From Clostridia bacterium (lineage in GTDB: Bacteria > Bacillota > Clostridia > Monoglobales > Monoglobaceae): DNA of 50,341 nt. Location: assembly GCA_017546165.1 (NCBI GenBank), contig JAFYXL010000006.1, forward strand, positions 1 to 50,341. Direction: 5' to 3'. Positions 33,146-37,747 of this stretch are shown here, in pieces. Below the pieces are notes generated by a model. It did not search any database, had not been told where the DNA came from, and saw only the letters and a program-made list of their open reading frames with translations. The translations under genes and the position numbers were made by a program. Within the stretch, counting starts at the first letter, position 1, and each line of letters starts with the position of its first letter.

Positions 33146-33772
33146 ATGAGATATATAAGCAAATCAAAACTATTCTTTTTAATATCTGTACTTACTTTAA
33201 TTTTTGCACTGACTATAACATATGCCAAAAATGTAGGAAATAACATAAGTAATGCGGTCCTCAGACTTCATATAATTGCAAACAGTAATTCAGCCTGCGA
33301 CCAGGATTTGAAACTCTGTGTCCGTGACAGAATTATCTCTGAGGCAGGAGAGTTTTTTTCTAACTGTCAAAACCTTGATGATGCAATCCGTATAACAAAT
33401 GAGCGCTCGCAGGAAATCAAAAAAATCGCCGAAAGTGAAATCCAAGACTATGGTTTTGACTATCCTGTCAAAGTTTCAATAGGGAACTTTGCTTTTCCTA
33501 CTAAATCTTACGGCGATGTAACCCTGCCAAGCGGAAGATACACAGCTCTTCGCATTGAAATAGGTGAAGCAAAAGGTGAAAACTGGTGGTGTGTTATGTA
33601 CCCACCCCTTTGCTTTGCCGATGGAGTACTTTCTGTAACAGACGCTGCAAAAACTCAACTTAAGTCTGACTTGGAACAGTCAGAATACAACCTGATAACC
33701 CAAAAAGATTCCGGCGCCATTCCTGTTGAACTACGGTTTAAAATAGTGGAAATTTTCCAAAATATATTTTAG
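33146..33772 (+). CDS. spoIIR: Stage II sporulation protein R
   Basis: Signal protein made in the forespore and secreted into the space between the two membranes, where it triggers the SpoIIGA protease to activate pro-sigma-E in the mother cell. The 208-residue product has an N-terminal helix (about 9-27) and the family core: [29 protein letters not shown], then [35 protein letters not shown]. The [14 protein letters not shown] stretch is diagnostic. AAAGGA lies ahead of the ATG and a sigma-F-like promoter upstream. It stands alone on the plus strand and its stop overlaps that of tsaD. It shows that the organism belongs to a spore-forming line. Confidence 0.94.
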
Positions 33773-34773
33773 CCGAGAGCCAGATTGGCAATTGCATTAA
33801 GGGACATATCTGCAAGCTTGCCTGCCCTATACTCATAATATGCCGCGCAACCTATCATTGCCGCATTGTCGGTACAAAGTTTCATTGAAGGGCAAACAAA
33901 TTCCATATTATTTTCATGTGCCAGCCTTTCACATCTTTCACGGAGCGGTCGGTTGGCCGCAACGCCCCCCGCCAAAGCAATCCGCTTGGTCTTATATTTT
34001 TTTGCACATTCAATCAAATGCCCGCTCAAAACATCTATCACCGCATTTTGGAAAGATGCTGCAATATCCGCTTTGTTTATTTCAAGGCCCTTTTGCTCAG
34101 CATTGTGGATATAATTTATAACGGCTGTTTTAACACCACTAAAACTAAAGTCAAATCCGCTATCTCCCATATTAACTCTGGGGAACCGAATCGCATCAGG
34201 ATTTCCGGATTTTGCACATTCTTGAATTGCAGGCCCGCCGGGATATCCAAGGCCAAGGACTCTTGAAACCTTGTCAAAAGCCTCTCCGGCTGCATCATCA
34301 CCTGTTTTTGCAAGGACTTCGTATGTATTATAATCCTTTACATAAACAATATGGCTGTGGCCGCCTGATGCTACAAGACAAATAAAGGGCGGTTTAAAAT
34401 CAGGATACTCAATATAATTGGCACAAATATGTCCTTTTATATGATGCACAGGTATAAGGGGCTTTTTGGCGGCAAAGGCCAAAGCTTTTGCTGTTGATAC
34501 CCCTACAAGCAATGCCCCAACCAGTCCCGGGCCATATGTCACCGCAATAGCATCAACCTCACTTAAGCTAACCTCAGCTTCAGCTAATGCTATGTCTATT
34601 ACATCGCTTATGTTTTCTATATGCTTTCTTGATGCAACCTCGGGAACAACCCCACCAAAGGCTTTGTGGAGGTCTATCTGTGTGTTGATTACATTTGAAA
34701 GTACTTTTGTTCCGTCTTCAACAACAGCTGCCGCTGTCTCATCGCAGGAACTCTCAATTGCAAGTATTTTCAT
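33769..34773 (-). CDS. tsaD: tRNA N6-adenosine threonylcarbamoyltransferase subunit TsaD
   Basis: Catalyses transfer of the threonylcarbamoyl group to A37 of tRNAs that read ANN codons. The 334-residue protein has the [17 protein letters not shown] start, the metal pair H111 and H115 in [27 protein letters not shown] and the C-terminal [13 protein letters not shown] and [15 protein letters not shown] motifs of the Kae1/Qri7/TsaD family. AGGAGG precedes the ATG. It is the last gene of the secA run. The donor, threonylcarbamoyl-AMP, would be made by the Sua5 domain two genes upstream; TsaB and TsaE, needed in the bacterial complex, are not in the window. Confidence 0.96.
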
Positions 34774-34792: not shown

Positions 34793-35227
34793 TTAAATTT
34801 TTATCTTCATTAAAATTGCATCTTCCTTATTCTCGTAATACAGCTTTCTTAATCCTACTTCTGAAAAACCCATTTTTTTGTAAAGTTCCCGTGCTGCAAA
34901 ATTTGAAACCCGGACCTCAAGATTTACTTCAAAGATATTTTCTTTTTTACAAACTTTCAGCATCTCTGAAATTAAACCTTCACCAATACCCTGGCGACGG
35001 AAATCTTTGTGAACTGCAACATCAATAATGTCTGCACCGCCGCAAATATTCCAAAGTCCCATATAACCAAGAACGGTCTTGCCATCAACCGCTACAATGT
35101 ATATAGCAATCTTGTTTTCAAGCTCTTTTAAAAATGTAGTTTTGGCATATCCTGAGTTGAAACACTGTTCTTCAATCTTAACCAACCCTTCAATATGCTC
35201 TTCTTTCATAGGTACAAATTCAATCAT
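34793..35227 (-). CDS. rimI: Ribosomal protein bS18 alanine N-acetyltransferase-like GNAT protein
   Basis: Acetyltransferase of the GNAT fold. The 144-residue protein has the [23 protein letters not shown] start, the acetyl-CoA loop [18 protein letters not shown] (the R/Q-x-x-G-x-G/A motif) and the [29 protein letters not shown] end typical of RimI. In bacteria RimI usually sits between tsaB and tsaD; here it lies between the Sua5 fusion (overlap ATGA at 35224-35227) and tsaD, 19 bp away. The target is by analogy the N-terminus of bS18, but GNAT targets are hard to fix from sequence. Confidence 0.85.
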
Positions 35228-36645
35228 AATTTTATCTTTTCTATCAATTCTTTAATCTCTCTTGCGCAACTTCTGTAAACTTCCATATCTCCGCCATAAG
35301 GGTCCTTGACATCCTTCTCTTCCCCTACAAACCCGGATATGGTAATTACATTTTCAAAGCCCACAAGACTTTTCTTATGGGAATCAGTCATCGTAAGTAC
35401 AATGTCTGAATTCTCAATTAATTCGGGGGTCAATTGTCTTGGAATATGATTTTTGATATCTGTGCCAAGCTCTGCTGCTGCCTTTACAGCATTTTCTTCA
35501 GCACTTGATTGATTTACAAACAATCCTGCAGAAATTGCAACTGCATTTTTGTGTGATATGTTGAAAATCCCCTCAGCCATTGCACTACGACAGGTATTGC
35601 CCGTACAGACAAACAGCACGGATTTTGCCGATTTTGCATCAATAATTCTTGCCGCCGCCGCTTTGTAAAGGCGGTTTTTTACAGCTCTCCAAAGTCCCTG
35701 TTCCGGAATTTCAGGAGCGTATATTTCTCTTACTCCCAGTGCATCACATTCACGAAGTGCATCAAAAAGCCTGTTTGCAGCAGACTTTGGGTCATCCTTG
35801 CCTCCAAGGGAAATCACATTTATACCCTTTGGCATATACTCAATAAATTCATCAAACACAAGTACTGAAACCGAATTCACCTTGCTGCGTTTTTCCAAAA
35901 ACCCGGCAACATCTGTTACATTACCTTTTAAAATGAATGTTTGACCTTTAGGCGAATAGTGTTTATATTTCATTCCCGGTGCTTTTGGAATGCCGTCGTC
36001 TTTTAGTTCACTTGACACCAGCACATCGCCCAAAACTTCACTTAGTTCCTCAACGGATATGCCACCCGGACGCAATACTGTGGGAATATCGGAAGTTAAA
36101 TCAATGACCGTAGATTCAACCCCTACCCGTGAGTTTTCACCTTTGATAATTCCCGCAACTCTACCATTCATATCTTCAAAAACGTGTTCAAAGTTTGTAG
36201 GACTTGGTCTGCCTGAAATATTAGCACTTGGCGCCGCAACAGGCACTCCACACTCCTTCAGAAAATCCCTTGCAATTTTGTTTTCCGGAATTCTGATACC
36301 AACAGTATCAAGTCCGGCTGATACTTCAGCAGGGATACAAGCCTTCTTCTTAAGAATCATAGTGATAGGACCTGGACAGAACTTTTCCGCCAGGAGCTTT
36401 GCTGTGTGTGGTATATTCTCCACAAATTCCTCTGCTTCTGAAAAATCTGCAATATGAACAATCAACGGATTATCCGACGGTCTTCCCTTGGCTGTAAAAA
36501 TTTTCTTTACCGCCAGGGAATCAAGGGCGTTTGCGCCCAGTCCATAGACCGTTTCGGTAGGAAAAATCACAGTTTCGCCTGACCTTATCAGTGTGGCTGC
36601 CGACTTTATACCCTCTCTTGTGTTTTCAAAAATTCTTGTTTCCAA
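35224..36645 (-). CDS. Fusion of threonylcarbamoyl-AMP synthase (Sua5) and YwlE-like protein-arginine phosphatase
   Basis: A 473-residue two-enzyme protein in one uninterrupted frame. Residues 1-210 are a YrdC/TsaC domain (IRSGETVIFPTETVYGLGANA, KGRPSDNPLIVHI, SANISGRPSPT) that makes threonylcarbamoyl-AMP from threonine, bicarbonate and ATP; residues 215-335 carry the Sua5 linker KAPGMKYKHYSP and its C-terminal Rossmann domain. Residues 341-473 are a low-molecular-weight phosphatase domain: SVLFVCTGNTCRSAMAE with C347, T351 and R353, and DPYGGD with D448. Thr in the loop is the mark of YwlE-type phosphoarginine specificity, where tyrosine phosphatases have Ile or Leu. The start is a TTG at 36645 with GGAG ahead. 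It overlaps rimI by 4 bp. In Bacillus the two activities are separate nearby genes (ywlC and ywlE). Confidence 0.88.
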   Translation of the reverse strand: METRIFENTREGIKSAATLIRSGETVIFPTETVYGLGANALDSLAVKKIFTAKGRPSDNPLIVHIADFSEAEEFVENIPHTAKLLAEKFCPGPITMILKKKACIPAEVSAGLDTVGIRIPENKIARDFLKECGVPVAAPSANISGRPSPTNFEHVFEDMNGRVAGIIKGENSRVGVESTVIDLTSDIPTVLRPGGISVEELSEVLGDVLVSSELKDDGIPKAPGMKYKHYSPKGQTFILKGNVTDVAGFLEKRSKVNSVSVLVFDEFIEYMPKGINVISLGGKDDPKSAANRLFDALRECDALGVREIYAPEIPEQGLWRAVKNRLYKAAAARIIDAKSAKSVLFVCTGNTCRSAMAEGIFNISHKNAVAISAGLFVNQSSAEENAVKAAAELGTDIKNHIPRQLTPELIENSDIVLTMTDSHKKSLVGFENVITISGFVGEEKDVKDPYGGDMEVYRSCAREIKELIEKIKL

Positions 36646-36670
36646 ATGAATACATCTCCGAAAAAATTCT

Positions 36671-37747
36671 CTAACTTTCTGCCTGTAATTTTAGCTTTTC
36701 GCTCTGGTCTGTTGTAATTAGTGCATCAATGACTTCATCAATGTCACCATTCATAATAGCTTCAATCTTGTATAATGTAAGTCCGATACGGTGATCTGAA
36801 ACACGGCCCTGTGGGAAGTTGTATGTTCTTATTCTTTCACTTCTGTCACCTGTACCAACCTGACTCTTTCTATCTGCCGCAATTGCGTCCTGCTGTTTTT
36901 GGAGTTCCGCCTCATAAAGTCTTGAACGCAGCACCTTTAACGCTTTGTCCTTGTTTTTATGTTGTGAACGCTCGTCCTGACATTCAACAATAACACCTGT
37001 AGGGATATGTGTAATACGAATTGCAGATTCGGTCTTGTTGATATGCTGACCACCGGCACCACTTGCACGGAATGTATCTATCTGAAGATCTGCAGGATTA
37101 ATCTCAAAGTCAACTTCTTCGGCTTCAGGCAGCACCGCAACGGTAACTGTTGAAGTGTGAATTCTACCTTGAGATTCGGTTTCAGGCACACGCTGAACAC
37201 GATGAACACCGCTCTCAAATTTAAGTCGGCTGTAGGCACCCTGTCCCTCAATCATAAACGATACTTCCTTAATTCCGCCTATACCAATTTCGCTAAGATT
37301 CATAATTTCTGTCTTCCAGCGTTTTGATTCGGCATACATTGTGTACATTCTGTAAAGGTCAGCTGCAAAAAGTGCCGCCTCATCACCGCCTGCACCACCA
37401 CGGATTTCAACGATAACGTTTTTGTCATCGTTGGGGTCCTTTGGCAGAAGCAATATCTTTAGTTCTTCCTCTATTCGCTCAATATTCGCCTTTGCCTCTT
37501 TGATCTCCTCGTTGAGCATCTCTTTGAACTCTTTATCTGTATCAGGATCATCAAGCATCATCTCGGCGTCGTCAATTGTATTTTTGTTGGTCTTATATTC
37601 CTTGTACTTCTCAACAATAGGAGTCATATCTGAATGTTCCTTGCAAAGCTTGCGCCAATTATCCATATCTGCCATAACGGCCGGGTCACTTATCTTTGCT
37701 GCAAGCTCCTCGTGTTGTTGTTCTATAAATGATAATTTTTCAAACAT
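36671..37747 (-). CDS. prfA: Peptide chain release factor 1
   Basis: Ends translation at UAA and UAG. The 358-residue protein has the helical domain 1, the stop-codon tripeptide of RF1 (PET at about 188-190, within [17 protein letters not shown]) and the peptidyl-transfer GGQ at 232-234 ([13 protein letters not shown]). Both diagnostic motifs are intact. It follows prfB by 18 bp; having RF1 and RF2 next to each other is less common than RF1 with prmC. The gene prmC, which methylates the GGQ glutamine, is not in this window. Confidence 0.97.

Follow-up and report, generated by a model that had tools for sequence, protein, structure and literature searches.

A Sua5-YwlE fusion in Clostridia as a possible link between t6A synthesis and protein arginine dephosphorylation

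Introduction

In every domain of life the decoding of ANN codons depends on the tRNA modification t6A, and phosphorylation on arginine labels proteins for ClpCP. A described system in which the two meet is the control of TsaD by McsB and YwlE in Bacillus subtilis (Ogura, 2020; PMC7546277). According to that study, which also gives the requirement for t6A in ANN-codon decoding, TsaD is phosphorylated on Arg282 and its degradation proceeds through ClpCP. Disruption of ywlE destabilizes the protein, and disruption of mcsB or clpC, overproduction of ywlE or the substitution R282K stabilizes it. This one B. subtilis study links t6A with arginine phosphorylation through TsaD.

The enzyme that acts just before TsaD is the threonylcarbamoyl-AMP synthase Sua5/TsaC2 (6f87, 3aje, 9d3h), which combines a YrdC and a Sua5_C domain and carries the linker motif KAPGMKYKHYSP. 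Proteins in which such domains are joined to others have been described: in TsaN (TsaD-TsaC-SUA5-TcdA; 8ide) Sua5/YrdC is joined to another pathway domain, and in TobZ and HypF YrdC is joined to a Kae1-like domain (PMC9654439). None of these three contains a phosphatase of the McsB system.

Here we describe a clostridial protein that shares YrdC, Sua5_C and the linker motif with Sua5/TsaC2 and, unlike that enzyme, has a C-terminal phosphatase domain. With YwlE (1zgg, 4kk3, 4pic) this domain has in common the CTGNTCRS P-loop, a Thr at the PX5 position, the DP acid motif and the fold. The players are the same four as in B. subtilis, namely McsB, YwlE, ClpC and TsaD, but whereas YwlE is a free 150-aa protein and ywlE a separate gene in B. 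subtilis, its counterpart here is the C-terminal domain of Sua5, encoded beside tsaD. No description of a Sua5-YwlE fusion, or of an LMWP pseudophosphatase beside Sua5, was recognized in a search of titles, abstracts and some passages of the open-access literature.

The fusion gene and its domains

The window, by which we mean the whole stretch of 50,341 nt that was analysed, carries the fusion gene on its minus strand (35224..36645), as it does every other feature whose coordinates in the window are given below. The gene is a single continuous frame of 473 aa with a TTG start codon, and 10 nt ahead of this codon the sequence contains a Shine-Dalgarno-like CGGAG (36656..36660). From its amino terminus the protein comprises a YrdC/Sua5 domain (PF01300, 200 bits; residues 19-194, 36064..36591), a Sua5_C domain (PF03481, 112 bits; residues 196-331, 35653..36060) and an LMWPc, or YwlE-type phosphatase, domain (PF01451, 89.5 bits; residues 343-470, 35236..35619). 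All three Pfam scores lie far above cut-off, and the NCBIfam equivalog cut-off for L-threonylcarbamoyladenylate synthase is passed as well (TIGR00057, 224 bits against 123.2). These matches bear out the original prediction that one 473-residue frame holds a complete threonylcarbamoyl-AMP synthase and a complete low-molecular-weight phosphatase (LMWP). The fusion of YrdC, Sua5_C and LMWPc in one frame is real. An assembly artefact or a chance joining is ruled out, as all three domains occur in 117 of the best 120 proteins listed (the window's own included; relatives at 53-80% identity) and the two genes are fused in 33 of the 38 genomes of the window's family. The remaining three of those 120 proteins are 340-aa Sua5 proteins without LMWPc.

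Sua5/TsaC2 structures are the closest solved relatives for residues 13-338 and the best PDB matches of this half by both sequence and fold. The motifs PTETV, KGRP.DNPL, APSAN.SGRPSPT and PGMKY.HY, which we take to be the ATP- and threonine-site residues of Sua5/TsaC2, are conserved throughout an alignment of 82 rows, and the genome contains this single Sua5. For residues 339-471 the best solved relatives are 4egs and the YwlE structures 4eti, 1zgg and 4kk3, and this half possesses the LMW-PTP fold, the C(X)5R(S/T) loop and the DP acid. The P-loop reads C347-TGNT351-C-R353-S354 (35584..35607), with Thr351 at PX5, and the general acid is Asp448 of a DPYGG motif (35302..35304) that aligns with DPFGG of YwlE. 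An AlphaFold model of the whole protein (pLDDT 91.5, pTM 0.85) matches the folds of Sua5 (6f89, 3aje) and YwlE (4kk3).

Gene neighbourhood and a proposed role at TsaD

Overlapping the fusion gene by 4 nt is rimI (34793..35227; TIGR01575, 125 bits against a cut-off of 86.4), and 19 nt past rimI lies tsaD (33769..34773; TIGR03723, 444.6 bits against 296.1). A prfA-like release factor gene (36671..37747), named from the GAGGQ motif in its translation, is located 25 nt upstream of the fusion, which gives the cluster order prfA-[sua5-ywlE]-rimI-tsaD. Among the fused loci of the window's family, the prfA-like gene is the upstream neighbour in 29 of 30, and rimI and tsaD follow downstream in 30 and 25 of 30, tsaD not being found within about 1.5 kb downstream in the other five. 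In other families tsaD was found at 20 of 57 loci, with flanks of varying length. TsaB is also present in the window's genome.

The original prediction had named a search for McsB as a check. The genome (1.34 Mb in 54 contigs, 88% complete) does contain one (PF00217, at G000:C2), which scores 399.4 bits against a cut-off of 385 with NF002194 and falls below the cut-off of the Bacillus-type model NF053707 (365.5 against 500). Its gene is accompanied by ctsR and a mcsA-like gene, and an 824-aa Clp ATPase that passes no NCBIfam cut-off adjoins ctsR-mcsA-mcsB. Of the 51 genomes of the order, 44 contain McsB, among them all 38 of the family, and all 29 McsB sequences examined from the order retain xEEDH and the CP[TS]N Cys.

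As judged from its sequence, the 473-aa protein is likely to be a two-headed enzyme, with one half making threonylcarbamoyl-AMP, the precursor of t6A, and the other predicted to remove the phosphoarginine tags added by McsB. TsaD, the next t6A enzyme, would probably be the main substrate of the phosphatase and would thereby be spared degradation through ClpC, and the tether to Sua5 may serve to steer the phosphatase to it. The Sua5-YwlE link would then have a concrete reason, because TsaD, encoded nearby here, is a McsB/YwlE/ClpCP target in the B. subtilis study (PMC7546277). That control, together with the presence of tsaD downstream of the fusions, leads us to propose that the phosphatase acts at the hand-over from TsaC2 to TsaD. 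All 42 TsaD sequences compared share the residue that is Arg278 in the window's protein, and its equivalence to B. subtilis Arg282 is a guess.

A two-headed threonylcarbamoyl-AMP synthase and phosphoarginine phosphatase that protects TsaD is, as a whole, the best explanation of these data, and we consider its chance of being correct to be about even. The evidence for a functional link is the status of TsaD as a McsB/YwlE target, the recurrence of the fusion in other lineages and the persistence of the pairing after loss of the phosphatase residues. The position of the fusion beside tsaD, its recurrence and the retained pseudophosphatase constitute independent evolutionary evidence for a tie between t6A and arginine phosphorylation, and the fusion offers a single purifiable protein with which that tie can be tested.

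Spread and origin of the fusion

A stop or frameshift between the domains in close relatives had been named as an observation that would speak against a genuine fusion. No such stop is present in the window's genus, where all nine genomes examined are fused. In the wider family, by contrast, sua5 and LMWP are separate overlapping genes in two of the 38 genomes (G011, G012) and split in one, and the fusion state of two more (G030, G031) could not be judged. The reading first put forward is therefore upheld in its two complete domains, in Thr351 and in McsB, and is qualified by family members in which the genes are unfused or split. A stop in G033 (L007) was dismissed as evidence of this kind, as it lies at the C-terminus, two codons before the position of the window's own stop. 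At the split locus (L119 of G017), the gene next after Sua5 is convergent and unrelated, and the LMWP is on another contig; the cause may be a gene split, a replacement or a mistake in binning.

No fusion was found outside the window's family among the other genomes of the order (51 genomes in total). In a listing of the class, at least 16 rows that span both domains are free of stops (13 from the family, plus G259, G135 and G183), and at least 40 run through stops and represent adjacent in-frame genes. Another fused locus is that of Clostridiaceae UBA4839 (L247). Long Sua5 frames in G316, G129, G148, G311, G388, G094, G053, G382 and G222 were considered as further fusions and all proved to be separate genes. 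A quick LG+G4 tree was built from 146 Sua5 domains (of 172 rows, after 26 duplicates or near-copies were dropped), and on it the fused label changes nine times, at least eight of these changes being forced by starred branches, with gains of the fusion not distinguishable from losses. By the named loci L243 and L244, the window's group belongs with Clostridia MAGs of ruminant colon.

The many adjacent in-frame pairs indicate that sua5 followed by ywlE is the ancestral layout, and the fusion would have arisen by loss of the stop between the two neighbouring genes. Such an origin is also the core of one alternative, namely that the fusion is neutral, that the two enzymes work independently and that recurrence reflects only how often the genes touch. 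The class listing agrees with this account, with 40 separate in-frame pairs against 16 fused rows and gaps of 0-200 nt between unfused sua5 and ywlE in the 33 loci measured, as do the two unfused genomes and the split one in the family. Close packing alone does make fusions, because YwlE-type domains are also joined to the products of other neighbours, a RimI-like GNAT at four loci (L101-L104) and RpiB at two (L105, L106), in the same way as in the window and with a partner other than Sua5. (Six YwlE frames of 290-370 aa had been suspected as RpiB fusions; two are, and the other four are the RimI fusions.) We regard neutral joining as plausible, with a probability clearly below even, in view of what is retained when the phosphatase decays.

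A decayed phosphatase beside Sua5 in family f31

The relevant genomes belong to a family that we label f31 and that is probably Lachnospiraceae, because three named Lachnospira/Lachnospiraceae loci, which have the motif LFxEPxNxKA discussed below, nest inside it on the tree. Related fused proteins carry the names Mediterraneibacter and Tyzzerella. A strong LMWP match was found in 61 of 120 sampled f31 genomes. The LMWP lies behind sua5 in 52 of these and in the same frame in eight (partially so in G423), and one has no Sua5 on the locus. Many of the LMWPs behind or fused to Sua5 have a dead P-loop (loci L151-L212; for example L155:442-1950 and L147:1471-1932), and one genome (G454) has two dead copies, 91% identical, on different contigs (L180, L185).

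McsB was found in 30 of the 120 genomes, and its sequence was examined in 29 of them (G482 was left out). We scored McsB as intact if it had kept both the position-2 Glu of xEEDH and the CPTN Cys, these being what we take to be its catalytic motifs, and the LMWP loop as intact if C-x-x-N-x-x-R-[ST] and the acid Asp were present. On this basis the loop is intact in five of six genomes with a motif-intact McsB, in none of seven with a decayed McsB and in four of 48 without McsB; the P-loop Cys is lost in 36 of the last group. A first division by score, made after the loops had been seen, gave five intact and eight decayed McsB proteins, and the motif rule moves G463, in which both McsB motifs are kept and the LMWP loop is dead, to the intact class. 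G486 has intact McsB motifs and no strong LMWP match. A tree-corrected test on nine starred pairs, underpowered and enriched for hand-picked McsB-less genomes, gave 2.8 pairs in the expected direction, 0 in the opposite direction and 6.2 without difference (p = 0.25). LMWP activity seems to follow McsB in f31, and the link to Sua5 seems to persist without McsB. Many f31 McsB proteins (L218-L241) read NGDDH and [FY]PTN instead, with the Glu and Cys lost in frames that are still open, and are likely to be pseudokinases by their sequences.

Neutral joining does not sit well with the behaviour of the inactive domains. Family f31 keeps dead-loop LMWPs behind or fused to sua5 with NG86 dN/dS values of 0.046-0.205 in the six pairs with finite, mostly saturated dS (12 of 20 LMWP pairs gave no finite dS), an intact-loop pair giving 0.075; these low values argue for selection on something other than catalysis. 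Moreover, the 120 listed relatives of the G437 fusion (Mediterraneibacter-type) are all Sua5-LMWPc fusions with all three Pfam domains, and none retains the complete catalytic set, the Cys being kept in 29. Where these pseudophosphatases are named, they are called, for example, threonylcarbamoyl-AMP synthase, and the added domain has therefore been overlooked. Since the phosphatase remains next to or fused with Sua5 after its catalytic residues are lost, the link itself probably matters; and because the fusion recurs and outlives that loss, physical pairing of Sua5 and YwlE may well bring a benefit of its own.

The same observations support a second alternative, in which the LMWP fold serves Sua5 chiefly as a structural or regulatory partner, and the hydrolysis of phosphoarginine is an extra function that can be separated from this role. 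In f31, 60 of the 61 strong LMWP matches are next to or fused with sua5, and loss of the P-loop Cys is the rule in McsB-less genomes. The active site is flanked by a conserved motif, LFxEPxNxKA, that survives the decay of the loop and was not seen in the sequences of other families compared; the dead LMWP domain also retains the YwlE fold in a model (4pic, TM 0.84). Against a partner role, Sua5 does without an LMWP in many genomes (for example G048-G050), and the model of a dead-loop fusion (P0205) reaches a pTM of 0.57, which means that no fixed arrangement of the domains is predicted. A rigid Sua5-LMWP interface common to both fusions is accordingly unsupported (pTM 0.85 for the window's protein against 0.57). 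A mainly structural or regulatory role appears credible to us, with a probability below even. A combined version, in which the YwlE fold is a dedicated partner of Sua5, repeatedly joined to it and useful to t6A synthesis without catalysis, that across Lachnospiraceae has survived decay or loss of McsB as a pseudophosphatase, and in which the window's family unites both roles and so joins arginine phosphorylation with t6A, we would place only a little short of an even chance.

McsB and the specificity of the phosphatase half

Within the window's order, 43 of the 44 genomes that have McsB also have a YwlE-type LMWP (the exception is G030), as does one of the seven that lack McsB (G003). Among 391 genomes of the class, with shared ancestry ignored, 211 have both proteins, 54 McsB only, 26 the YwlE-type protein only and 100 neither. 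Leaving out 26 weak McsB matches, by a cut-off (E = 1e-36) chosen after the list had been seen, changes these counts to 210, 29, 27 and 125. Intact loops also occur in genomes with no McsB or a weak match to it (G200, G260, G345, G359, G201, G375, G103, G193, G120), some of which are incomplete and others not; several in which no McsB was detected, among them G120, G193 and G375, have completeness values of 99-100%. Four McsB-less loci of another family, f20 (L129, L136, L138, L139), have CTSN[TI]CRS loops behind sua5, with the Gly changed to Ser and, in two of the four, the Thr at PX5 changed to Ile.

The PX5 residue of the P-loop governs selectivity, Thr favouring phosphoarginine and Ile phosphotyrosine, according to PMC8001253. 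The original prediction had singled out Thr351 of the CTGNTCRS loop as a mark of phosphoarginine phosphatases, and the sequence agrees: PX5 is Thr351 and not the Ile of phosphotyrosine LMW-PTPs. Among the matches listed, the P-loop Cys, Asn, Arg and Ser and the acid Asp are kept in all 117 full-length relatives, and PX5 is Thr in 116 and Ser in one. It is very improbable that this half acts as an ordinary phosphotyrosine phosphatase, and this reading is dismissed on Thr351 and family context: the domain shares a Pfam family with those enzymes, and the only NCBIfam models that match it are of phosphotyrosine phosphatase and arsenate reductase, but every one of these matches is far below cut-off, PX5 is Thr where the genome's other LMWP has Ile, and YwlE-type domains are associated with McsB across genomes. 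That second LMWP of the window's genome (L002:1471-1932) has the loop CHGNICRS and is likely to be of the phosphotyrosine type.
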